A stretch of 64,000 nt of DNA. It comes from Lachnospiraceae bacterium A4 (GTDB lineage Bacteria > Bacillota > Clostridia > Lachnospirales > Lachnospiraceae). Both the position numbers and the translations under genes were made by a program. The notes under the pieces were generated by a model, which saw nothing but the letters and a program-made list of their open reading frames with translations, did no database searches and was not told where the DNA came from. Where the stretch lies: positions 37,105 through 101,104 of the forward strand of contig KE159564.1 in the NCBI GenBank assembly GCA_000403215.2. Direction: 5' to 3'. Of the stretch, positions 4,218-62,863 are shown piece by piece (position 1 is the stretch's first letter; each line of letters starts with the position of its first letter).

Positions 4218-5114
4218 TCAATACTCGTAGTGCCATATATAGCGGAGGCATGCATCAAGTTCAGCCCAGCTGATAAACCTCCCCCAGTGCATTTTCATGT
4301 CACTGTTCTGGTTTGATTCCACCACAGTTATGCCGTCACTGCTACGGGAAAGCACAACCATCACGTGCCCGAGTCCCTCAGAATTCTTGATATACACCTC
4401 GTCGCCTATCCTTAAGGAACTTTCCGCGACGCTGCGGGAAGCTATCGACCTTTTGGGGACGCATCCATCCACGGTCATTAACACGTCGTCATCCCCCTGT
4501 GCGACCCAGCCCACATGGATATCATAAGGATCCCCATACAGTCCGTTTGTGATCCTGGCCGCACCGGAGCTGCAGTTTCCGACCTTCATTCCTTCGGGAT
4601 ACTGCTCCTTGAGCGAGAGAAGCCTTGCCTGCACCTGCTGCTCGGTCCAGCCCACATGGACGTAACCCGCCGCGTCAAACTGCTGCTGCAGTCTCTGCTT
4701 CTCCTGCAGGAATGTTGCCTTGTCAACCTCCTCTCCGTCTGTGAAAAGCCAGAAAGGTCCGTTGCCGATGTCCACCGTGGTCTGCACGGGTGTGGTTACC
4801 GTCGCAGTGTCGGCCGCCGTATCCGCCGTCCCGTCCACGGACTCGCCCCCTGTAGCGCCCTCATACGGAATCCTGCCCTCCTTCTGTCCGAAGTTTACAT
4901 AGTGGCTGTACAGCGCCTCGGGACTCGTCCCTACGGCCGCCGCCACGTCCGGATACAGCGCCGCGTAGTACACCGGGTCGAAGCTGCCGGCGTCCTCCTG
5001 ATCCGCACGCGCGGGACTGGTAACCATCCCTGCGCCTTCCACGGCGCCGAATGCCATTGCCGCCGCCATTGCCCCCACGATAAGTTTCTTTGCAAAATTT
5101 TCTCTTTTTTTCAT
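4218..5114 (-). CDS. Secreted putative cysteine amidase/peptidase
   Basis: 298 aa with a clear signal peptide (MKKRENFAKKLIVGAMAAAMAFGAV, cleavage near residues 30-38, after SPARA). Residues about 45-85 form a short repeat-like domain (YYAALYPDVAAAVG...HYVNFGQKEGR) common in secreted Lachnospiraceae proteins. A Thr/Ala-rich linker follows. The C-terminal half has a papain/CHAP-like layout: NCSSGA (candidate nucleophile Cys), GDEVYI, GHVMVV (candidate His) and VVESN (candidate polar residue). That suggests cell-wall cleavage, as needed by conjugative elements, but the exact family is not certain. AAAGGAGG precedes the ATG. A TTGACA promoter lies 240 bp upstream, so the leader may be long. Confidence 0.6.
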   Translation of the reverse strand: MKKRENFAKKLIVGAMAAAMAFGAVEGAGMVTSPARADQEDAGSFDPVYYAALYPDVAAAVGTSPEALYSHYVNFGQKEGRIPYEGATGGESVDGTADTAADTATVTTPVQTTVDIGNGPFWLFTDGEEVDKATFLQEKQRLQQQFDAAGYVHVGWTEQQVQARLLSLKEQYPEGMKVGNCSSGAARITNGLYGDPYDIHVGWVAQGDDDVLMTVDGCVPKRSIASRSVAESSLRIGDEVYIKNSEGLGHVMVVLSRSSDGITVVESNQNSDMKMHWGRFISWAELDACLRYIWHYEY

Positions 5115-5353
5115 TTTAATGTCCTCCTTTTCTTCGTTTCATCTTGTATTGCCGTTTTTAATATGGCAGTACGTTATAAATACTTTTTTGTTTTTAAGTG
5201 TTTACCCTCCAAATGCTACGCCGCATTCTATCCATCGTTCATATGGTTCCTCCTCGTTTCTATACTTCAGGCAGCGGCATCCCGCCGTCCACTAGATCTT
5301 TCCATCTCCTGCTGCCATGCCGGTTTGGAGAAAATCAGTGTATCCTAATAAGT

Positions 5354-5383
5354 ATTTTATCTCATTATGATGAATTTTGTCAA
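5354..5383 (-). promoter_or_regulatory. Promoter with long leader toward the secreted hydrolase gene
   Basis: On the minus strand TTGACA (5383-5378) is followed after 18 nt by TAAAAT (5359-5354). The bases GAGATAAAAT around the -10 are identical to those of the promoter at 6295-6324, which suggests shared origin or shared control. Transcription would run through about 230 nt before the ATG at 5114, passing one GGCAGCAGGA copy. Confidence 0.6.
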
Positions 5384-5537
5384 CATGACACGATAAATCA
5401 ATTTCCAGTCCCGCCGATGCCATATTCCAGCGCATATACAGGCAGCAGGAATACCTACCCTGCCTATAGCAGAATTCTTCCCCGCAGTAAGACTGCAGGG
5501 AGTTCTTTACTATGCTGCAGTATTGAATGAAATCTAC

Positions 5538-5576
5538 AAAAAAAGAAGCAGTATCTCTAAATACTGCTTCTTTTTA
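5538..5576. terminator. Bidirectional intrinsic terminator
   Basis: An 11-bp perfect stem, AGAAGCAGTAT / ATACTGCTTCT, with a 6-nt loop, A-rich on the left and five T on the right. It works on either strand. On the minus strand it would end the transcript of the signal peptidase gene at 5718-6254. Confidence 0.8.
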
Positions 5577-5717
5577 ATCATACATTATCCAAAAACCCAA
5601 AATCAGAAAATACAGAAATCAGTTCATGTATGTCAGTCTTTTCTCAATACTGTTCTGGAGCAGGACGGATATTACCAGATTCTGCAATGTTTTAACCGGC
5701 CGGATCTGTGATTCTTT

Positions 5718-6254
5718 TTAGTTTCTAATATAATCCAGATTCCCACAGTTTTTCAGGGGAGATATGATAAATTTCGCTTTTCCCACGATATTTTCAAGCG
5801 GAACATATTTTTCTGTCCAGAACCGGCTGTCGTTTGACTGGTTCCTGTTATCCCCGAGAAAAAAATAACACCCATCAGGCACCACATAAATGCCGTCCCC
5901 CCTGCCGTTCATCGGTCTTCTTATAAATGAATCATCCAGTTCCGTTCCGTCTGCATAAACACATCCGCCCGACACCTCGATGGTCTCTCCGGGCAGCCCG
6001 ATAACGCGTTTGACAAACAGCTCATCCGGACTGTCCGGGGGATAGAAAAAAAGTATGTCATATCTTTCAATGTCCTCCCCTTCGATGCCATACCGCGTAC
6101 CCAGAATCAGATCGCCGGTTTTTATTGTATCCTCCATGCTGCCTGACACTGCCCGGTCCAGACGCCACACCGTACTAAATAAAATAAAAAAAATTAACAT
6201 GCCACACACATAAACAGCAAAGATTTTTAACATTCTTTTCGTAAATTTATCCAT
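5718..6254 (-). CDS. Type I signal peptidase (first of two paralogues)
   Basis: 178 aa. One N-terminal membrane helix (about residues 10-30) is followed by the catalytic Ser in VSGSMEDT, the catalytic Lys in FVKRVIGLPGE, and the conserved GDNRNQSNDSR box. All signatures of bacterial type I leader peptidases are present, so it should be active on the outer face of the membrane. Its neighbours encode or encoded secreted and surface proteins, so I infer a role in processing those. It is clearly paralogous to the gene at 6416-6937. It has its own TTGACA promoter and a terminator about 140 bp downstream. Confidence 0.88.
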   Translation of the reverse strand: MDKFTKRMLKIFAVYVCGMLIFFILFSTVWRLDRAVSGSMEDTIKTGDLILGTRYGIEGEDIERYDILFFYPPDSPDELFVKRVIGLPGETIEVSGGCVYADGTELDDSFIRRPMNGRGDGIYVVPDGCYFFLGDNRNQSNDSRFWTEKYVPLENIVGKAKFIISPLKNCGNLDYIRN

Positions 6255-6294
6255 AAATCCCTCTCTTTTAAGGTTTTATCTATCCACACGAACC

Positions 6295-6324
6295 ATTTTA
6301 TCTCTTATTGTTTAAAATTGTCAA
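6295..6324 (-). promoter_or_regulatory. Promoter of the first signal peptidase gene
   Basis: TTGACA (6324-6319), 18-nt spacer, TAAAAT (6300-6295), read on the minus strand. Spacing and the GAGATAAAAT -10 context equal those of the promoter at 5354-5383. The leader to the ATG at 6254 is about 35 nt. Confidence 0.65.
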
Positions 6325-6415
6325 CATTGACTTGCATGGATTCGTATGGCCTGTTTCTTCCATATAATATAGATATAAAACGGACAGCCGTATTTATCCT
6401 GCTGCCCCCTGTCAT

Positions 6416-6937
6416 CTATACAGCCCCGATGTTTTTAAAGGGAAAGACTATAAACTTCGCTTTCCCCTCGACATTTTCAACCGGCACATACTTTTCCGTC
6501 CAGAACCTGCTGTCGTCTGACTGGTTGCGGTTATCGCCCATAACGAAATAACAGCCGTCCGGTACCACATAAGTGCCATCCCCCTTTGTGTTCATCGGAT
6601 TTTTTACAAAGGAATCATCCAGCCTGACGCCGTCCGCATATACGCTTCCGTCGCAGACCACGACCGTTTCTCCCGGAAGTCCGATCACCCTCTTGATATA
6701 GACCGTATCCGGTTCGTCAGGCGGAGCGAAAACCAGTATGTCATACCGTTCTATATCCCCCTCCCCAATATCATACCTTGTGCCAAGCACGAAATCACCC
6801 GTCCTGATCGTGCCCTCCATACTGCCGGATGGTATAAAGTTTAACATCAGTACGGTTCTGGACAGGATTACCGTGGCTGCCCATAACATACAGTACCCCG
6901 CCAGGAACCGCAGAAGCCTTTTCTCAAATATATCCAT
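6416..6937 (-). CDS. Type I signal peptidase (second paralogue)
   Basis: 173 aa with the same layout as its neighbour: N-terminal membrane helix, catalytic Ser in PSGSMEGT, catalytic Lys in YIKRVIGLPGE, and GDNRNQSDDSRFW. The two differ mainly in the membrane anchor and the C-terminal tail. A tandem pair is unusual for one element and suggests either different substrates or a recent duplication. The ribosome site GGGAGG lies before the ATG at 6937. A TATAAT element occurs at about 6990 but its -35 is weak. The transcript end is followed by a GGCAGCAGGA copy at 6397-6406. Confidence 0.88.
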   Translation of the reverse strand: MDIFEKRLLRFLAGYCMLWAATVILSRTVLMLNFIPSGSMEGTIRTGDFVLGTRYDIGEGDIERYDILVFAPPDEPDTVYIKRVIGLPGETVVVCDGSVYADGVRLDDSFVKNPMNTKGDGTYVVPDGCYFVMGDNRNQSDDSRFWTEKYVPVENVEGKAKFIVFPFKNIGAV

Positions 6938-7040
6938 GAAATTTTCCTCCCTTCAGGACATGTGCGGATTTATTGTTTCCATAATATATATTATACGCCA
7001 TGCCTGTATTTAACGGTTTTAGGGAAAACATGGAAGGGGC

Positions 7041-7070
7041 AGAAAACCCCGGACAAAACCGGGGTTTTCT
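7041..7070 (-). terminator. Intrinsic terminator after the MazF-DUF5688 gene
   Basis: A 12-bp stem, AGAAAACCCCGG / CCGGGGTTTTCT, with a 6-nt loop. It begins 9 bp after the stop codon at 7079. The A-rich arm gives a T-rich tail on the minus strand. Confidence 0.8.
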
Positions 7071-7078
7071 ATTTCATG

Positions 7079-7747
7079 TCAGCATATATAAATCCTGCCT
7101 TCTTCCCTGTCATAGCAGTACAGCGAGTACGACAGGATCTCATCCGGCTGCACCTGCGTGTCATTGATTTCCCTGATCATGCTTCTGATTTCTTCCGTCT
7201 CCTTCATGTCTTCAACCGGCAGGATTAGAAGCTCATGTACCGACGAGGGAATGATAAAAAGGCTGCTGCCGGTTCTGTCTGCGAATTCACGGATTAGGCC
7301 GGGATACAGCATGCAGGCCGCCCCTTCTATCTTTTTTATGTTGGTAAGCACATACATTGGCACGCTGTCCGCAGATTCTGCCGTAAACCCATCACAGTCC
7401 GGGTTCTCCGCCCTTATGGCTTCTTCCATGCTTTTTATCTGCCCCTCGTAATCAGTATTTTTAATGCTCCCTATCCACTTCCCCAGCCTGTCCTTGTCTA
7501 TGGAGGTAATCTGTTCCGCCATGGCTGTACATGGTCCGTCCAGCCCGCAGTCATTCAGATGGACATGGGTAGGCAGCTTTTTCTTTTTCACTTTGCTGGT
7601 AACCGGAATTACGGTCACCACCGGCGAAAATTTATTTGCCATGTCGTTGCTGATCACTATTACCGGCCTTATCCCGGCCTGCAGACTTCCCTCTGGCTGC
7701 ATGTCCAGCCGCGTTATGTATATATCCCCGTTTCTGCACATCCGCAT
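7079..7747 (-). CDS. MazF/PemK-like toxin fused to DUF5688-like C-terminal domain
   Basis: 222 aa from the ATG at 7747, which has AAAGGAGAA in front; the frame stays open further upstream without a better site. Residues 1-112 are a MazF/PemK-type ribonuclease fold: GDIYITRLD, GIRPVIVISND, VIPVTSK and the EQITSIDKDRLG helix. Residues about 125-222 look like the end of DUF5688 proteins: MYVLTNIKKIEGAACMLYPG, IIPSSVHELLILP, NDTQVQPDEILSYSLY. MazF toxins cut mRNA and normally are about 110 aa with a separate antitoxin gene. No antitoxin gene is next to it, so the tail may act in its place or direct the enzyme. A strong terminator follows. Confidence 0.7.
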   Translation of the reverse strand: MRMCRNGDIYITRLDMQPEGSLQAGIRPVIVISNDMANKFSPVVTVIPVTSKVKKKKLPTHVHLNDCGLDGPCTAMAEQITSIDKDRLGKWIGSIKNTDYEGQIKSMEEAIRAENPDCDGFTAESADSVPMYVLTNIKKIEGAACMLYPGLIREFADRTGSSLFIIPSSVHELLILPVEDMKETEEIRSMIREINDTQVQPDEILSYSLYCYDREEGRIYIC

Positions 7748-7902
7748 ATTTCTCCTTTCCTTTTTACATTCATCTAAAAGATGGTTTTTTTGCAGGTTAT
7801 TTTTTGCCTTATGCCGTTCCATGTCCCTGCGCAAAATCCACGCCCCTCCGCCGCCGGCAGTCCTGATCCGTTTCCAAAGGATTTTACCTCCTTCCCAAAA
7901 AG

Positions 7903-54909: not shown

Positions 54910-55782
54910 TTATTTAAATTCTTTTCCTGTCAGCAGTGCAAACGCCTCTTTATATTTGTCAACCGTTCTGGTGACAACCTCCTCCGGCAGCAGGTTCTCG
55001 TTATCAGGATTTGCCCTGAGCCAGTCTCTCACATACTGCTTGTCAAAAGATGGCTGTCCCTTTCCTGCCTCGTATCCGTCCAGCGGCCAGAAGCGTGAAC
55101 TGTCCGGCGTGAGCATCTCATCGCCAAGCACCACATTGCCGTCCCTGTCAAGACCAAACTCAAACTTTGTATCCGCAATGATAATTCCTTTGCTCAGCGC
55201 ATATGCCGCACATTTTTTGTAGAGCGCGATCGTAGCCTCCTTAATCTTGACAGCGTACTCCTCTCCCTTTCCGGGAAACTGTGCTTCCAGCACCTCAATG
55301 CTGCGCTCAAAGGAGATATTCTCATCATGCAGTCCAATCTCTGCCTTGGTGCTCGGCGTGTAGATCGGCTCAGGAAGCTTCTCAGACTCCTGTAATCCCT
55401 CTGGCAGTTTTATGCCGCAAACAGTTCCATTCTCCTTGTAGCTTGCCCAGCCGCTGCCTGTGATATATCCGCGCACAATGCACTCAATTGGAAGCATCTC
55501 AAGTTTTTGGCACATCATGCTCTTTCCCTCAAACTGCTCGTTCTGGAAAAATTCGGGCATGTCCTTCACGTCCACAGAAATCATGTGGTTCGGTACAACC
55601 TCCTTCGTGAAATCAAACCAGAATTTTGACATCTGTGTCAGTATTGCGCCCTTGTTCGTAATCTTGTTTCTTAAAATGACATCAAAGGCGGAAATCCTGT
55701 CTGTCGCCACAATAATCAGACTGTTCCCGTTGTCATATACCTCACGTACCTTCCCCTCTTTGATTGGTGCAAATTCCTGCAT
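54910..55782 (-). CDS. purC: Phosphoribosylaminoimidazole-succinocarboxamide synthase
   Basis: 290 aa. It joins aspartate to CAIR. EGKVREVYDNGNSLIIVATDRISAFD at the start, IECIVRGYITGSGWASYKENG, then IIADTKFEFGLDRDGNVVLGDEMLTPDSSRFW. This is the longer SAICAR synthetase type. It precedes purF by 12 bp and follows the coiled-coil membrane gene by 38 bp with AGGAGG and no terminator. Confidence 0.96.
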   Translation of the reverse strand: MQEFAPIKEGKVREVYDNGNSLIIVATDRISAFDVILRNKITNKGAILTQMSKFWFDFTKEVVPNHMISVDVKDMPEFFQNEQFEGKSMMCQKLEMLPIECIVRGYITGSGWASYKENGTVCGIKLPEGLQESEKLPEPIYTPSTKAEIGLHDENISFERSIEVLEAQFPGKGEEYAVKIKEATIALYKKCAAYALSKGIIIADTKFEFGLDRDGNVVLGDEMLTPDSSRFWPLDGYEAGKGQPSFDKQYVRDWLRANPDNENLLPEEVVTRTVDKYKEAFALLTGKEFK

Positions 55783-55820
55783 CTCTTCTTCCTCCTAAAT
55801 ATATACTTTTATAAAATGCT

Positions 55821-57005
55821 TTAAGCAAGCGCTTTCTCATAGTCAGACACCAGATCTAAGATCTTCTCCGCGTACTCGGGATATTTATCCACAATATCCT
55901 TCACCTCGTCCTGTGCCTCCTGTGCCGCCTTGGCGTTGTACTCCATCTGTTTTCTGAGCTTCTGGCGGCGGATAATCAGTCCATGCCGGATTTCAATCAT
56001 CTCTTTATTGTCAATCAAGGCAGCCGCCTGACGCAGCCAGATATTCGGGTCTGCGAGATTGCAGCGGCGCAGCAGTTTGATCAGCGCGGCCTCATTAAAG
56101 TCCAAATCCTGATCCATCTGCTTCTCCTGCTCACGGTGAATATTTTCCTCTAAATATTTGTCCCAGAGCTTTTTGAGCTCGTTGGAACTGTTCACATCAT
56201 ATTTCACATACAGATATTCCAGAAGATTTGTGTTGTTCACATAGCGGATTTTCACTGTATTGTGCAGCAGCACAAGTTTATTAATTCCCTTCTCAACCCT
56301 CACAAGCTCGCGCTGTGCATCATGGAATTTGACATACACAAACGCAAGTGTTGACGCTGCGATGAGCACAGCGACCGCATAGCCCAGCGACACTTCTAAC
56401 TGCCATGCCGCACCGATAATCGTGAGCATCAGCACCAGAAACAGCATCGAGCCAACGCAGATAAAGGTGAGGCCTTTCATATTCTGCATTGTATTTAGAA
56501 GCTCGTTCTTTCGGAAATAATAGGCATGGCGCTCACCTTCAAGCCTTCCCATATCTTTTTTGACAAGGACTTGATAATCTTCTGCCTCTTTGAGCTTGCT
56601 GTATCCCTCTGGCATATACTGCTCTACGCGCTCCATGCGCAGATAATCCTCCGGCTTCATAATACGCCGCTTTTTGTCAAGCTTCTCCCTGCTGTTTTCG
56701 AGCTCGAGAAGCTTTGTAGCATACGTCTTTAGCTGCTCCTTCACCTCGTCTGTCTGTGCCTCGATTTCCTCCATATCGGTCAAGTAAGATGTCACCAGAT
56801 TATATTCTCCTCCCAGCGCGTCCAGCTCCTTTGACGCCTCTGACATCTGCTCCAGACACGCCTTGACGTAGTGCTCGCGCTGTTTCTTGTCATGCATGTC
56901 AATATTATCGCGCTTTAAGCTCTCCTCCTCCCAGTCGGGGCGGCACACATTTTCTTCATCCGCCTGACGGTCAAAAAGTCCCTTGATTTTTCCCAGTAAC
57001 CCCAT
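55821..57005 (-). CDS. Coiled-coil protein with two membrane spans (DUF5717/5716 operon)
   Basis: 394 aa from the ATG at 57005 (AAAGGAG 8 nt upstream; an ATG at 57011 touches the site). No known domain. Residues about 45-175 are a long charged coiled coil (EQMSEASKELDALGGEY, LLELENSREKLDKKRRI). Two hydrophobic helices lie at about 180-203 and 208-228, close enough to form a hairpin in the membrane. A second charged region follows with many Glu/Lys and a short helical end (DEVKDIVDKYPEYAEKIL). Both ends should therefore face the cytoplasm. Last of four genes (15-27 bp spacing); it could anchor the complex formed by the others. Role unknown. Confidence 0.72.
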   Translation of the reverse strand: MGLLGKIKGLFDRQADEENVCRPDWEEESLKRDNIDMHDKKQREHYVKACLEQMSEASKELDALGGEYNLVTSYLTDMEEIEAQTDEVKEQLKTYATKLLELENSREKLDKKRRIMKPEDYLRMERVEQYMPEGYSKLKEAEDYQVLVKKDMGRLEGERHAYYFRKNELLNTMQNMKGLTFICVGSMLFLVLMLTIIGAAWQLEVSLGYAVAVLIAASTLAFVYVKFHDAQRELVRVEKGINKLVLLHNTVKIRYVNNTNLLEYLYVKYDVNSSNELKKLWDKYLEENIHREQEKQMDQDLDFNEAALIKLLRRCNLADPNIWLRQAAALIDNKEMIEIRHGLIIRRQKLRKQMEYNAKAAQEAQDEVKDIVDKYPEYAEKILDLVSDYEKALA

Positions 57006-57026
57006 TTTCATACTCCTTTCGCCATT

Positions 57027-57860
57027 TTAGTCCATTGTCTGACGTTTGTAATCCTTCTTGAGCTGCCTGATCAGCCCCTGTGACTGCTGGCTGTACGCCT
57101 CGAGCTGTCCTTCCTCCCTGAGCCGCGCAAGCTCTGTCACGAGCTGCCGCTCTCTCGATACAAGCCATCTTTCATCTGCCTGCGCACACAGTTGCTCTAC
57201 CTTTAGAAAATCCTCCTCCCAATTCGGATTCTCGCGCTTAAACGCGCCGTATGCATAGTCTGTGAGTGCTTTTTTGTTCGCAAGGATATAGGCATATCTC
57301 GTCTGCCTGTCAGGATGCAAAAGATACGCTTCATAATATAAGTTTGCCGCCTGCTTATAGGCAAAATCCATGGCATAGACCGACGCCATATTATAATACA
57401 GCAGCGCCCTCCCTGCGCTGTCCCGCGATGGTATGTACTCCACAAGCTCTCTGTAAATCGAAAGTGCCTGACGGAATCTCCCCTGTTGGTACAGATATTC
57501 TGCCCGTTTTTTGTAGCGCTCGATCGTCGTGAGGCTGGACTGTTCTTTTAAGATACGGTCAACCTGTCTGATCGTGCTGCTGTCATACATCCCGGTCCGC
57601 TCAAAAACGGTCGAGACAAAGGCAGCCACGGACACATGTTTCCTGACATAGCCCTCGAGTTCATCTGCCAGCTCTGTAAGCCCGCATTCGTGGCGGATCC
57701 AGTTGACCAGCTCTGCCGAGACCACCGAGTCATCCAGCAAATGCACCCTTTCCATAAAATAATAACATAATTCCTCTATAGAATACAATGAAATGTCAGA
57801 AAATTTTAAATAAAATGGATTTTTTGCATAATTTCCTGTGCATAAACAAACATTATTCAT
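57027..57860 (-). CDS. TPR-repeat protein of the DUF5717/5716 operon
   Basis: 277 aa, soluble. Residues about 1-110 form a helical domain of their own (SIEELCYYFMERVHLLDDSVVSAELVNWI, VRKHVSVAAFVSTVFERTGMY). Residues about 120-210 hold TPR-type repeats: YKKRAEYLYQQGRFRQALSIYRELVEYIP, ALLYYNMASVYAMDFAYKQAANLYYEAYLLHP. TPRs bind other proteins, so it probably links members of the operon. The C-terminal helix is strongly charged. It starts 20 bp after the DUF5716 gene. Confidence 0.75.
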   Translation of the reverse strand: MNNVCLCTGNYAKNPFYLKFSDISLYSIEELCYYFMERVHLLDDSVVSAELVNWIRHECGLTELADELEGYVRKHVSVAAFVSTVFERTGMYDSSTIRQVDRILKEQSSLTTIERYKKRAEYLYQQGRFRQALSIYRELVEYIPSRDSAGRALLYYNMASVYAMDFAYKQAANLYYEAYLLHPDRQTRYAYILANKKALTDYAYGAFKRENPNWEEDFLKVEQLCAQADERWLVSRERQLVTELARLREEGQLEAYSQQSQGLIRQLKKDYKRQTMD

Positions 57861-57880
57861 TTACATAACCTCTTCCCCAT

Positions 57881-59203
57881 TTATGTAATCGCCTCAAGCG
57901 GCAGACATTCTCTCCAGACCTGCCCCGTGGATGGGAAAAATTCGCCAAAGCCCTTGTCCGTAATCTCAATCTGCACAGCATTGGCATCCTCCATATAAAA
58001 CCGAAGCCCTACACGGTTTGTCTTATTGCCCCTGACCTTCATGCCCTCAAGCGAAATCCGCGCCACGCGTGTCTTTTTCCCATCAACCGGAGAAATATTG
58101 AGCGTAATCGTATTGTTTTTGACAAGCATCACATCAAAAACACTGTTTGCCTCATACCAGTTTGTGCCAGCGTCCAAAATCGGATAATAAATCTCCGTCT
58201 GTCCTTTATCGCAGGTCATTCCGATATTCGCCCGCAGCTTGTCCGCCGACAGATATACATACGCGCCGGACAGCGTGGAGGGATACACCCTCTCCCGCGC
58301 CCCGTAACACGCCCCTTTACTGAAAAGATTGTTCCCCTGAAACACACGCCTTCCGCGGCACATGTACTTGAGCGAATCCCTGCACCATTCCTTTGAAAAA
58401 TGTTCGCCCAGCAAAAAGACCGATGTGATGACCCGCTGGTCACAGTTCTTGCGCACAATCTCAAGCAGCGCTGCGTCGAGCTGCTTGTAAAATGCACTCT
58501 TTGCCGTCTCATTCTTATCTGACAGGTCCGGAATCCGCATTTGCGGATAATTTGCCGTCTCTATAAAACACGCCACTGGATTTGTCTTTCTGTTCATCGA
58601 GAGCAGATGGCTGTCAATGCCGTCACTTCTGTAATCATACAGCAGGACATCATGAATCCACATCTCCTGCGGCTGATGAATCATATATTGAAAAAAACAG
58701 TCCTCATGGCTCAAAAAATATACTTCGAGCTTTCGCTGCCCTGCGCGGTTTGACGCATTGCGAAGCATCTCCATGACCCCTTTATCCATCTCCTTGAGTG
58801 TGAATGCCACCGCCGCAATCTCTTCGGAGACAATATACGCCGACAGCAGGGCAAGCGCCTTTCGCACAAACAGGGCAAGCAGCTCTTCCGCCGTCACCGC
58901 CTCCTCGGCAGCCGAAGCTGTGCCAACCTTGACACTGGTGTTGTTTTTCGCCAGCACCAGCAGATTTTCAACAAGCGTTCCCTCCCCTTCCTTGGCAGTT
59001 TTCAACGCTTCTTTGCCAATCAGCCATGCCGCGCTTCCCGTGGCGTTCTTTTTTTTGCACAGCAGTGTAGGAATATTGTACTGCTCTTCCCCCATCACCA
59101 GACTCACCGTGTCCGGCATACTCTGGTCCTGTCTGCAATAGCTAATCTGTGAGTAGTCATTTCCAAGATCAAACCCGACAACCACTTTATTCTTTTTCGT
59201 CAT
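57881..59203 (-). CDS. DUF5716 protein, actin/Hsp70-like fold
   Basis: 440 aa. The start VVVGFDLGNDYSQISYC has the form of the phosphate-1 loop of the actin/Hsp70/sugar-kinase (ASKHA) fold (DLGTxxS). YFLSHEDCFFQYMIHQ and DVLLYDYRSDGIDSHLL stand where the linker and phosphate-2 loops are expected, and VFLLGEHFSKEWC where the adenosine loop (GG) is expected; the latter two are degenerate. It may bind ATP weakly or have lost hydrolysis. DUF5716 is known mainly from Lachnospiraceae and lacks an assigned function. Second gene of the operon, 21 bp after DUF5717. Confidence 0.78.
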   Translation of the reverse strand: MTKKNKVVVGFDLGNDYSQISYCRQDQSMPDTVSLVMGEEQYNIPTLLCKKKNATGSAAWLIGKEALKTAKEGEGTLVENLLVLAKNNTSVKVGTASAAEEAVTAEELLALFVRKALALLSAYIVSEEIAAVAFTLKEMDKGVMEMLRNASNRAGQRKLEVYFLSHEDCFFQYMIHQPQEMWIHDVLLYDYRSDGIDSHLLSMNRKTNPVACFIETANYPQMRIPDLSDKNETAKSAFYKQLDAALLEIVRKNCDQRVITSVFLLGEHFSKEWCRDSLKYMCRGRRVFQGNNLFSKGACYGARERVYPSTLSGAYVYLSADKLRANIGMTCDKGQTEIYYPILDAGTNWYEANSVFDVMLVKNNTITLNISPVDGKKTRVARISLEGMKVRGNKTNRVGLRFYMEDANAVQIEITDKGFGEFFPSTGQVWRECLPLEAIT

Positions 59204-59224
59204 AACAACTCTTTACCCCTCTGG

Positions 59225-62200
59225 TCACAATACCTTAAACAGCTCTCTGACGCAGAAATCCTGATACACATAGTCCTCTGTCAGCTGCTGTGCCGTCACC
59301 TCGTCCCGCACGCCGATACTCAGTAAAATATCATTTAAGATGCTGAACCGGTCGGCTGTGCCCTGCTTCCCTGACGCCGCAGAGGTTTCTGACAGCCCGG
59401 AAAGTGTGCCGCTCTGCGTCACATGCTCTCTGACCACATTATCGTCGTCCAGATAGTTTTCTGTAATATAATACTGTATCGTCTCTCCATAAAAAAGCTG
59501 GAACATACTCACATGAATCCCATCGTACATTTCCTTCATTTCGCGGATTTCATAACTGCCCTCCTCCACAGAGTCATCATCAAAGGCGTAATGTATATAG
59601 ACCTGACTCTGCGGCTGTGTCCGGTACTCTATAAAGATACTGTTTTTGATATAATGCAGCTCTGGCACCAGCTCCACCAGCTTCACATAAAACGGAAAAT
59701 AGATGTCCTCATTCAGCAGCTCCCGGATAAACAGCCGCGCGACATCCTGCGGAAGCTCTGTCTGCTGTACATTTTCTGCCCAGAATTTTAAGAGCGCCAG
59801 CTTGCACACCTTGTCTGTCAGTGCTTTTTTGTCATACTTCTGGTACAGGATATCAAATACCTCCGGGTGAATAATCGCCTCATAGACAAAGTATTCATAT
59901 GCAATGTTCATCAAAATCCCATTCACCAGTGACGCATCGTGCGCCTCATACTGCACATATGCGATCAGCATCTCATCCCGGTCCTGAATGGCAGCCCCGG
60001 TAAACACAATCTGCCTGAGAAGCCGCTCTAGTATGAGCTTTGCATCCAATTCCAAATCTACTGCGGATTTCCACAATTTGCGAAGCTCAGACGACCTGCC
60101 GTCATAATTCATCATCAGATAGCGCAGAATATTCTCGTCATACTTCATATTCTTGTAGATGTAATGTGCAACATTCACAAGAAATTCATCATATTCATAA
60201 TCTTTACTGACAATCCGTTTGCTGACCAGCCTTGCCACCGCTTTAGACTCCACATCTGCCACGCCAAAAGATCTCAGCCAGTAATACGCCTTGTCAAACA
60301 TGCCCCTCGAGATCAGATACTTGATAAATTCTGCACGCTCGGACGCCTCCATATCATCTGCCTCGACGTCCTCCAAAAAGGCATCCAGCTCGCCAATCAT
60401 GTCATTGTCATAATAAAACCGAAGCAGCTTCGTCCGGATTTCCTTCTTAAAGCTCTCCACCACCTGCGGCGATTCCGCAAGATTCTTAAAGCGTTTTACA
60501 TTGTCCTGCGTTATGGTAATGTAATTCTTGTCCACTTCACACAGATAAATGTCAAAGCTCAGCCGTCCCTGCATATAACCGCTGATATATGCCACCTGTC
60601 TCTTTGGGTCCATCAACTGTTTATTTTCATAATCAATGCTCTTTGTAAAACGGTTTCCATGCTCGTCCTGTAAAAAAAGTTTATATTCACTGCCATAAAT
60701 CGGTATCATGCAGACACAATTTTCCACCGGATACGAGCTCTCGCCGTTCACCTTCTCATGAATAACCACAATGTTTTTCACCTTGGGGTTATCGACGTAG
60801 ATGCGGTGCATAAAAAGCAGCGGCGTAAACGCATATGCCGTCTCATCTGTGACCATCTGCGGCGCCAGCATATTTTTATATAAATATGCCAGATTTTCAT
60901 TGATGTGGCCCAGCCTGATCTGGTCTACCACAAACCGTTCAATCGCGATGCGGTAACTCTGCTCTAAGTCTGGATATTTGTCTTTATTTTTGATGATATA
61001 GGCATACAAAAAGGCATTTAACTCATAATCCAGATTGCTTTGGTAGGCAAAATACATCAGCACCATCTTGGGAATCTCAATACTTCCCTTGATGTCCCCA
61101 TACTTGTCAAGTTCAAGCGACATCATATAATACTCATACAGTCCCGTCACTCTCACCGAATGCTCTACCCCCAGCGCATACCACGGGTAGCAGGCGGCAC
61201 CTTTTTTGCCGCCCAGTATCAGTATATGGCAGACCGACGCCACTGTCTGCGGCGAGCCATACGCCTCATAAACCTTTCCTAAAATTCTGACAAGCAGCGC
61301 CGAGTACTCCTTCTTGCGGGCGGCAAGATATTGAAGCTGCTCGATTAGTTCCGGTTTGAGAATCTGCTGTCTGGCGCCATGCCACAGAACACTTTCCTCA
61401 AATTTGTCAAGCTTTAACAGAAAAGTAGGACGTTCTAAGAGCAGCATAACCGCCTCGCACAATAACAGCGGGCTGGTACAGCCGTTCTCAAACATCTCCT
61501 CCATAAACTGCCATCGCTGTTCTTTATTCCGAAACAGCTCTTCATTGAGCTGAAGGACAAACCAGCCCAGACGCCACTCCGACGGATTATTGACATAGAT
61601 CGTCTCAATCTCATCACTAATATTCTTGACATAGTCCTCTGCGCAGTTAATCAGCGTTGTCAGATACAGGTAATAGCAGTTTTGAAAAATGTCACTCGGC
61701 TCCTTGGACAGCCGCTGTTCAAGCAGGTCAAGATACCATTTTGCCTCGTTAAAACGCTCCTTTGCGATGAGAAGCTGCACGCGGTATAAATTGTAGAGAA
61801 TACTGTCCTCGTCCATCTCCAGCAAAATTTCCAACGCCTTCTCAAAACGGTGAAGCCACTGCGCCAGCGTAATCTTTTCCATGCGCATGTCCACATAGCT
61901 GCGAATCATGTCACAGACTGCCCTGCGCTGTCTGCGGTTTTCCGTCCGCTGCTCCTGTTCCTCTTCCATCAAAATGTCAACTGGTATCGTGTACTCATTG
62001 CACGCATCTGAAAAAATCACTGCCCCGCTGTTGACGCCTTCATGCAGTTTGGAAGCATCTATGTAAATATCAAAAACACACTGGTTTTCGACAAAATCCG
62101 CATTAGTAAGCTGCTGTCTGGCAGTGCTGATAAAATCCCCCTTAATCCACACCTGGACGCATCCATAGCCCCAACTGCTCTTTTGAATCACGATGCTTTT

Positions 62201-62800
62201 CACGATACTGTCCTGCACATCCTCAAGCAGAAATCCTTCTATATCAAAGGTGTAAATAATCGGCGTCTTTTTACTAATCTCGATCAAAAATTCCTCTACA
62301 TTCTGCTCGTTGCCCTCATTGCGCGTCAGCCCCGTGTAAGACATGACCGCATTTTTATCACTCCTGTGCAGTATGGAGGCAAAATTCCGAGCGTAAAAAA
62401 GCGCAACTGCCTCCTCCCAGTTGGTCTGCGCCAGATTCGTAAAATGAAACAGATTCTTGATCGTTCCCAGAGAACTCTGCATCCGCGGCTTCTGCACACT
62501 GACATGATACGGTATCACATACTCACCGCGGTTGCTGATCAGTACAAACTCTCCACGGATACTGCTGCCCGCCTCAACAGATGTCCCGTCAAAGCAGTAC
62601 GAAACCTGTGTCTCCTCACCCGAAAAAGTATTCTCATGTACTCTCATTCTGGTATCTGACGAATAGATTTTTCCCTCTGTATATTTGTCAGCGGCATGTA
62701 TGGCAAAGCTGTCCTCAACAATTTCTCCCAGTTCTGCACTAAACTCTATATTCTGACAAGAAATCTCGAGATACTCCGGCTTTTCCTTATTGTCACCCAT
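59225..62800 (-). CDS. DUF5717 giant helical-repeat protein
   Basis: 1191 aa, no signal peptide or membrane helix. N-terminal beta-rich domain (about 1-110, GEIVEDSFAIHAADKYTEGKIYSSD, RGEYVIPYHVSV), a second Ig-like part near 195-290, then a long helical array (about 300-900) with TPR-like pairs (LIAKERFNEAKWYLDLLEQRL, YYLYLTTLINCAEDYV). The end (about 1060-1140, SQVYIHYAFDDDSVEEGSYEIREM) is again beta-type. It is the first gene of the unit, with its own promoter. Size and repeats suggest a scaffold. Family DUF5717 has no assigned function. Confidence 0.78.
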   Translation of the reverse strand: MGDNKEKPEYLEISCQNIEFSAELGEIVEDSFAIHAADKYTEGKIYSSDTRMRVHENTFSGEETQVSYCFDGTSVEAGSSIRGEFVLISNRGEYVIPYHVSVQKPRMQSSLGTIKNLFHFTNLAQTNWEEAVALFYARNFASILHRSDKNAVMSYTGLTRNEGNEQNVEEFLIEISKKTPIIYTFDIEGFLLEDVQDSIVKSIVIQKSSWGYGCVQVWIKGDFISTARQQLTNADFVENQCVFDIYIDASKLHEGVNSGAVIFSDACNEYTIPVDILMEEEQEQRTENRRQRRAVCDMIRSYVDMRMEKITLAQWLHRFEKALEILLEMDEDSILYNLYRVQLLIAKERFNEAKWYLDLLEQRLSKEPSDIFQNCYYLYLTTLINCAEDYVKNISDEIETIYVNNPSEWRLGWFVLQLNEELFRNKEQRWQFMEEMFENGCTSPLLLCEAVMLLLERPTFLLKLDKFEESVLWHGARQQILKPELIEQLQYLAARKKEYSALLVRILGKVYEAYGSPQTVASVCHILILGGKKGAACYPWYALGVEHSVRVTGLYEYYMMSLELDKYGDIKGSIEIPKMVLMYFAYQSNLDYELNAFLYAYIIKNKDKYPDLEQSYRIAIERFVVDQIRLGHINENLAYLYKNMLAPQMVTDETAYAFTPLLFMHRIYVDNPKVKNIVVIHEKVNGESSYPVENCVCMIPIYGSEYKLFLQDEHGNRFTKSIDYENKQLMDPKRQVAYISGYMQGRLSFDIYLCEVDKNYITITQDNVKRFKNLAESPQVVESFKKEIRTKLLRFYYDNDMIGELDAFLEDVEADDMEASERAEFIKYLISRGMFDKAYYWLRSFGVADVESKAVARLVSKRIVSKDYEYDEFLVNVAHYIYKNMKYDENILRYLMMNYDGRSSELRKLWKSAVDLELDAKLILERLLRQIVFTGAAIQDRDEMLIAYVQYEAHDASLVNGILMNIAYEYFVYEAIIHPEVFDILYQKYDKKALTDKVCKLALLKFWAENVQQTELPQDVARLFIRELLNEDIYFPFYVKLVELVPELHYIKNSIFIEYRTQPQSQVYIHYAFDDDSVEEGSYEIREMKEMYDGIHVSMFQLFYGETIQYYITENYLDDDNVVREHVTQSGTLSGLSETSAASGKQGTADRFSILNDILLSIGVRDEVTAQQLTEDYVYQDFCVRELFKVL

Positions 62801-62833
62801 TGTTTCACTTCCTTAAAAAACTCATTATCTTCT

Positions 62834-62863
62834 AGTATACCCTATAAGGTGACATTATGTAAA
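62834..62863 (-). promoter_or_regulatory. Promoter of the DUF5717 operon
   Basis: TTTACA (62863-62858), 18 nt, TATACT (62839-62834) on the minus strand; leader about 30 nt with AAGGAAGTG. No other promoter was seen between here and purA, so the transcript might extend into the pur genes. Confidence 0.68.

Follow-up and report, generated by a model that had tools for sequence, protein, structure and literature searches.

The subject of this analysis is a four-gene operon on the minus strand of a 64,000-nucleotide stretch (the window) of contig KE159564.1 from Lachnospiraceae bacterium A4, in which four open reading frames (ORFs) were confirmed in the order DUF5717, DUF5716, TPR protein and coiled-coil protein. 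Judged from its predicted structure, DUF5716 is a pseudo-Hsp70: an ATPase-like fold without the catalytic residues, followed by a substrate-binding β domain (SBD-β) and no lid. The operon is read here as a reduced, Hsp70-derived chaperone or assembly platform, in which DUF5716 would be a scaffold-mounted hub that binds clients or partners independently of ATP; we give this reading a probability of about 0.5. All four genes are genuine and evolve under strong purifying selection, with a ratio of nonsynonymous to synonymous substitution of 0.023-0.067 across all four against the closest relative (L090), and the core DUF5717-DUF5716-TPR is near-universal in Lachnospiraceae.

The AlphaFold2 model of DUF5716 (pLDDT 89.2, pTM 0.88) has Hsp70s as its best structural matches, aligned along the chain with the SBD-β included; Ssz1 is tied for best among them, with 14% identity within the aligned part. 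A profile comparison with H3, an intact Hsp70 of the sister families described below, gives an E-value of 1.9e-26. An earlier prediction made from the sequence (the original prediction) had proposed an ASKHA fold, and model, structural matches and profile match bear it out and sharpen it to Hsp70: the nucleotide-binding-domain fold and the SBD-β argue strongly that DUF5716 belongs to the Hsp70 superfamily by fold and descent. The DUF names given then hold as well at the curated Pfam cut-offs: DUF5716_C (PF18980) is matched with E 1e-101 (340 bits, cut-off 34.7), and DUF5717 matches PF18984 (E 2e-283, 942.7 bits) and PF18983 (E 1e-75, 254.9 bits), both with a cut-off of 25. For the four window proteins, NCBIfam returned nothing over its cut-offs, and a PDB sequence search with DUF5716 gave no match at E<=1.

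The chain stops after the SBD-β, so that the SBD-α lid of a canonical active Hsp70 is missing. In an alignment of low identity, the catalytic Lys, Glu and Thr are lost in 23/23 sequences, while the Asp is kept in 14/23; of the GG of the ATP pocket, the first Gly is kept in 23/23 and the second in 0/23. On these residue calls, DUF5716 would lack the Lys/Glu/Asp/Thr and GG set of an active Hsp70. Most pocket positions of its SBD remain hydrophobic. Four DUF5716 ORFs fused to another protein were left out of the residue counts and of the tree by a length filter, and ORFs of at least 500 amino acids as well as repeats were left out of one comparison of the nucleotide-binding domain.

The sister families of the order Lachnospirales reveal a larger cluster. 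Seven loci (L052, L053, L054, L055, L058, L060, L062) from six other families share the gene order DUF5717, H1, GrpE-domain protein, H2, H3, H4, TPR, with an additional 195-amino-acid ORF between H3 and H4 in L058 and with DUF5717 as two ORFs in some sister-family loci. The same plan is found in L056, where H2 is recognised by position only, and in L050, from a seventh family; H2 of these two loci, missed by the motif filter, was left out. In L050, H4 (Hsp70-VWA, 5840-7884) and the TPR gene (4705-5731) are each broken into two ORFs, by assembly error or decay. H1, H3 and H4 of the sister families have intact catalytic residues, and in L053 they match the Pfam HSP70 family (5e-76, 7e-63 and 4.5e-96, respectively), H4 also matching VWA (1.9e-10). 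The GrpE domain was found in 9/9 such cluster proteins scanned and VWA in 7/7 H4 scanned. H2 of L053 matches both DUF5716_C (1.5e-26) and HSP70 PF00012 (1.4e-17). By computation, H2 is the sister-family orthologue of DUF5716, a degenerate protein within the larger cluster. In the family f5 the cluster genes are often scattered but kept, for example on three contigs in G123 and 43 kilobases apart in G191, which points to a functional association and not to linkage alone; DUF5717 is absent from the three f5 loci fetched.

Lachnospiraceae were sampled with 120 genomes, one per genus, the window's genome included. At the level of orthologues, no match to H1, H3 or H4 was found in them, and only the dead Hsp70 is kept. 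The H1 query gave 0/120 genomes at 1e-60; as a control, 5/5 sister-family genomes give 571-950 bits and three Lachnospiraceae genomes at most 161. With the H4 query, the best Lachnospiraceae match reaches 288 bits versus 854-1072 bits for orthologues, and among the matches listed in this family none extends beyond query residue 576 of 696. We regard H3 as absent, since PF18980 also detects it (7.5e-10 in L053), yet each matching Lachnospiraceae genome yields a single match. The GrpE-domain protein is not at its larger-cluster position in Lachnospiraceae, where DUF5717 and DUF5716 are adjacent; no search aimed at it was made in this family. In the tree, H1, H3, H4 and Lachnospiraceae DUF5716 each fall on one side of a branch, with H2 beside DUF5716 and H3 outside both, a placement suggesting that H2 and H3 predate Lachnospiraceae and that H3 was lost. 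The tree thus fits a loss of H3, under warnings for long branches and composition; one H2 row (L055) groups with DUF5716, perhaps falsely, and rows L065 and L066 were dropped. A 222-amino-acid open frame on contig C36 of the window's own genome (L172, L174) matches only the beginning of the Hsp70 model (about positions 1-204).

The two DUF families are near-universal in Lachnospiraceae. PF18980 is matched in 117/120 Lachnospiraceae genomes and PF18983 in 116/120. One genome, 67% complete, has DUF5716 only (G020), and three (G029, G091 and G098; 93, 98 and 99% complete) are without both. The two genes are adjacent on the same strand in 113 of the 116 genomes with both, and on different contigs in the other three. 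A draw of 146 genomes across the order gave DUF5716 in 71 (15 of them in the window's family), DUF5717 in 75 and both in 70. All hits from the draws at class level (DUF5716 in 9/245) and phylum level (DUF5717_N in 4/299) lie in the window's family, and 14 control genomes gave no match to either; within this sampling, neither DUF family occurs beyond the order. All 26 Lachnospiraceae neighbourhoods read, drawn from genomes having DUF5716, hold DUF5717 (split into two ORFs in L081), DUF5716 and TPR, and 7/26 hold the coiled-coil gene. A further set, the 80 closest relatives with a name, leans towards near kin; 80/80 have the three core genes, in some cases truncated where a contig ends, and 75/80 have the coiled-coil gene.

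The fourth gene is accordingly an accessory. It was matched in 54/120 Lachnospiraceae genomes, reduced to 53/120 after one 25.6-bit match was dropped; 52 of the 53 lie on the DUF5716 contig, at most 1.3 kilobases from the DUF5716 match. In Lachnospiraceae loci without it, no common replacement was seen among the next four ORFs. Of the conserved four-gene core proposed originally, DUF5717, DUF5716 and TPR therefore stand and the coiled-coil gene does not; its membrane hairpin remains a sequence-based prediction. No Pfam model exceeds its cut-off for this protein, and a PDB sequence search returned keratins as best (E 7.5e-4), then other coils. The TPR protein has Pfam TPR models under cut-off (best 1.6e-5). 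DUF5716 and TPR form one ORF of 684-723 amino acids in four Lachnospiraceae genera, which makes the TPR protein a candidate partner of DUF5716.

The predicted large helical scaffold, DUF5717, is upheld at the level of a model (mean pLDDT 86.4, pTM 0.57), which adds two Ig-like domains to TPR-like solenoids. Foldseek rows for DUF5717 have low TM-scores, and no whole-chain relative is claimed for this reason. Rows to ciliary central-pair proteins, obtained with both the DUF5716 and DUF5717 models, are taken as common shared domains.

From the fusions, co-occurrence and co-absence, we infer that the proteins of the operon form a complex, and we propose the following role for it. DUF5717 would be the scaffold, with its Ig-like domains and two solenoids. 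DUF5716 would sit on it and hold a peptide, a tail or a partner in its SBD-β without an ATP cycle, with the TPR protein as its direct partner. Where present, in about half of the genera, the coiled-coil hairpin may tie the assembly to the membrane. The intact Hsp70s of the sister families, together with a GrpE dedicated to them, would run an ATP cycle; Lachnospiraceae would have lost this part and retained an ATP-independent holdase or assembly hub. Alternatively, the remnant might pass clients to the housekeeping DnaK, by analogy with Ssz1, which serves Ssb in this way in yeast.

Several points weigh against this proposal. The DUF5716 profile does not significantly match H1 (E 0.026, 107 columns) or H4 (E 0.94), the window protein has no PF00012 match and so falls outside the Pfam HSP70 family, and the residue calls depend on an alignment of low identity and are correspondingly provisional. 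Conservation of the SBD pocket is incomplete, with mixed residues at the M404 position and no A429 loop. A dead Hsp70 could also serve purely for interaction and bind no client. The DUF5716-TPR fusions (4/117) could reflect few events, the interaction of DUF5717 with the others is suggested by linkage and co-occurrence, its pTM makes the predicted domain placement unsure, and the membrane coiled-coil gene is missing in over half of the genera.

The closest working analogue of DUF5716 appears to be Ssz1 of the eukaryotic ribosome-associated complex (RAC), by resemblance and not by membership. Ssz1 is without a lid, binds ATP but cannot hydrolyse it, and relies on a partner to complete its SBD, according to the part of PMC7083937 consulted. 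DUF5716 would likewise combine an Hsp70 nucleotide-binding fold and an SBD-β without a lid, and no ATP hydrolysis is expected; it is bacterial, however, and its candidate partners are the TPR protein and DUF5717 instead of a J-protein. The fusions make the TPR protein a candidate only for the partner completing the SBD. A co-chaperone like RAC, with DUF5716 in the role of Ssz1 as an adaptor of the housekeeping DnaK loading nascent or exported chains, is nevertheless unlikely: Ssz1 is among the best structural matches, but other Hsp70s score as well, and no J-domain protein was seen among the cluster proteins scanned with Pfam. We hold equally doubtful that the Hsp70 fold is a protein-protein module in a structural scaffold organising the membrane or the division site. 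The dead ATPase, the giant Ig/solenoid protein with solenoid matches to scaffold-type subunits, and the membrane coiled coil in 53/120 genomes would suit such an envelope role, whereas the three intact Hsp70s and GrpE domain kept alongside in sister families point to chaperone work, and the SBD pocket is still mostly hydrophobic. Canonical Hsp70/DnaK with GrpE shares the fold, and the sister cluster has both kinds of protein, three Hsp70s with their catalytic residues intact and one with a GrpE domain; the differences are the lidless pseudo-ATPase, the VWA domain on one sister-cluster Hsp70, the giant DUF5717 scaffold and, among the proteins scanned, the lack of a J-domain protein.

Among published operon themes, the Hsp70/GrpE branch of the GAP1-N2 GTPase conflict systems comes closest. 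As described for firmicutes and actinobacteria in section 29 of PMC7159879 (eLife 2020), it combines HSP70 and GrpE with a DnaJ- or TPR-fused FNIII protein and, in some cases, with a second HSP70 that lacks the peptide-binding domain. Features in common with the present clusters are the operon arrangement, Hsp70s (one of them degraded), GrpE, proteins of β-sandwich and TPR type, and an occurrence that includes firmicutes. The PADLOC candidate PDC-M61B matches H3 (8.7e-11) and H4 (4.4e-7) of L053. That the operon is a member or offshoot of this theme is nonetheless improbable: Pfam scans of the cluster proteins and of part of the flanking set found no GTPase or GAP1 family, the four window proteins have 0 PADLOC matches at E<=0.01, no plasmid matched, and the distribution is near-universal, with a single copy in 117/120 genera. 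A literature search for the names DUF5716 or DUF5717 returned a single unrelated paper and not that one. Least credible of all is an actin- or MreB-like filament with accessory proteins, as the cytoskeletal guess of the original prediction implied. It shares the ASKHA superfamily fold with DUF5716, but the best matches are Hsp70s along the chain and the nucleotide loops are lost; because the SBD-β is present and sister-family orthologues adjoin intact Hsp70s and a GrpE-domain protein, this guess is unsupported, and the chaperone-like one fits better.

The positions of the genes and of their predicted domains are collected below.

Features of the operon in the window (positions count from its first letter)
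Feature	Positions	Strand	Basis
DUF5717 candidate scaffold protein, 1191 amino acids	59225..62800	-	Pfam PF18984 + PF18983; AlphaFold2
Ig-like domain resembling ASH/PapD/MSP domains	62486..62776	-	DUF5717 residues 9-105
Second Ig-like domain	61964..62266	-	DUF5717 residues 179-279; AlphaFold2 model
Alpha solenoid, TPR-like	60815..61957	-	DUF5717 residues 282-662; Ctr9, Ski, IFT-A rows, low TM-scores
Second alpha solenoid, beta stretches flanking both sides	59651..60607	-	DUF5717 residues 732-1050; AlphaFold2
DUF5716 predicted lidless pseudo-Hsp70, 440 amino acids	57881..59203	-	AlphaFold2, Hsp70 fold matches, profile match to intact Hsp70
Hsp70 nucleotide-binding-domain fold, catalytic residues lost	58280..59191	-	DUF5716 residues 5-308
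Hsp70 substrate-binding beta domain, no lid after	57899..58246	-	DUF5716 residues 320-435
TPR protein, 277 amino acids	57027..57860	-	Sub-cut-off TPR models; neighbourhoods
Coiled-coil protein, 396 amino acids, putative two-helix membrane hairpin, accessory	55821..57011	-	Sequence, alignment, genome search
Putative membrane hairpin	56331..56471	-	About residues 181-227 of coiled-coil protein; hydrophobic stretches in alignment, read by eye
Promoter-like site TTTACA-18-TATACT, upstream of DUF5717	62834..62863	-	Sequence scan

The genes are closely packed as first described, with gaps from gene 1 to gene 4 of 21, 20 and 15 base pairs in place of the 15-27 given then. The promoter-like site reported upstream is present, and it may drive all four genes as originally proposed. 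In an alignment of 19 upstream regions (the window and 18 relatives picked from the nearest loci), TATACT occupies the same position in 16, the exceptions being L091, L092 and L103, while the -35 element drifts. The gene 38 base pairs beyond the coiled-coil gene (window 55782-55821) is, from its sequence, presumably purC, and the scan listed no terminator between the two on the minus strand. Purine genes lie downstream in many relatives, and the chaperone-like operon may share transcripts with them. Recurrent downstream neighbours are genes that we take, from their sequences, to be purC/purF/purB-like or valS-like; such housekeeping neighbours say little on function. A 445-540-amino-acid protein, sometimes with a zinc-ribbon-like start, is found 2-4 genes downstream of the cluster in L065, L066, L069, L084 and L085, beside valS-like genes.

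A mobile or phage origin was considered and rejected: viral contigs gave no relative (single-protein query) and plasmids no match. Five records named 'Bacteriophage sp.' match, and the stretches of the three examined (L178-L180; MT835486.1, MT835719.1, MT835988.1) hold DUF5717, DUF5716, TPR and a coiled-coil match in a row, DUF5717 being cut by the record end in L179 and the coiled-coil ORF being only 200 amino acids long in L180. ORFs that we assume from their starts to be valS-like adjoin the cluster in L178, and L178 and L180 have a common upstream gene, presumably for a RarA-type ATPase, named likewise from its sequence start. These three look like bacterial DNA mislabelled as phage.

In the open-licence papers searched, no description of a function for DUF5716, DUF5717 or this cluster was found; the parts consulted of PMC8215388, PMC8265645 and PMC11019930 contain no mention of such a cluster, and the Pfam entries carry no functional assignment. 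This analysis adds the Hsp70 identity of DUF5716 and the larger cluster of the sister families. A wider scenario may be put forward tentatively, with somewhat more doubt than confidence: Lachnospirales would have a dedicated machine of several Hsp70s (three active and one pseudo-Hsp70), a GrpE of its own, VWA and a giant scaffold of Ig-like domains and solenoids; in Lachnospiraceae it would have been stripped to pseudo-Hsp70, scaffold and TPR partner, a near-universal ATP-independent core machine and convergent bacterial counterpart of the RAC pseudo-Hsp70. Two Pfam families of unknown function thereby gain a concrete hypothesis, and a gene set present in nearly all sampled genera of Lachnospiraceae can now be tested as a machine derived from chaperones. 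If the reading is true, evolution would have retained a dead Hsp70 and discarded the live ones, and the operon would encode a core machine present almost throughout a dominant gut family.

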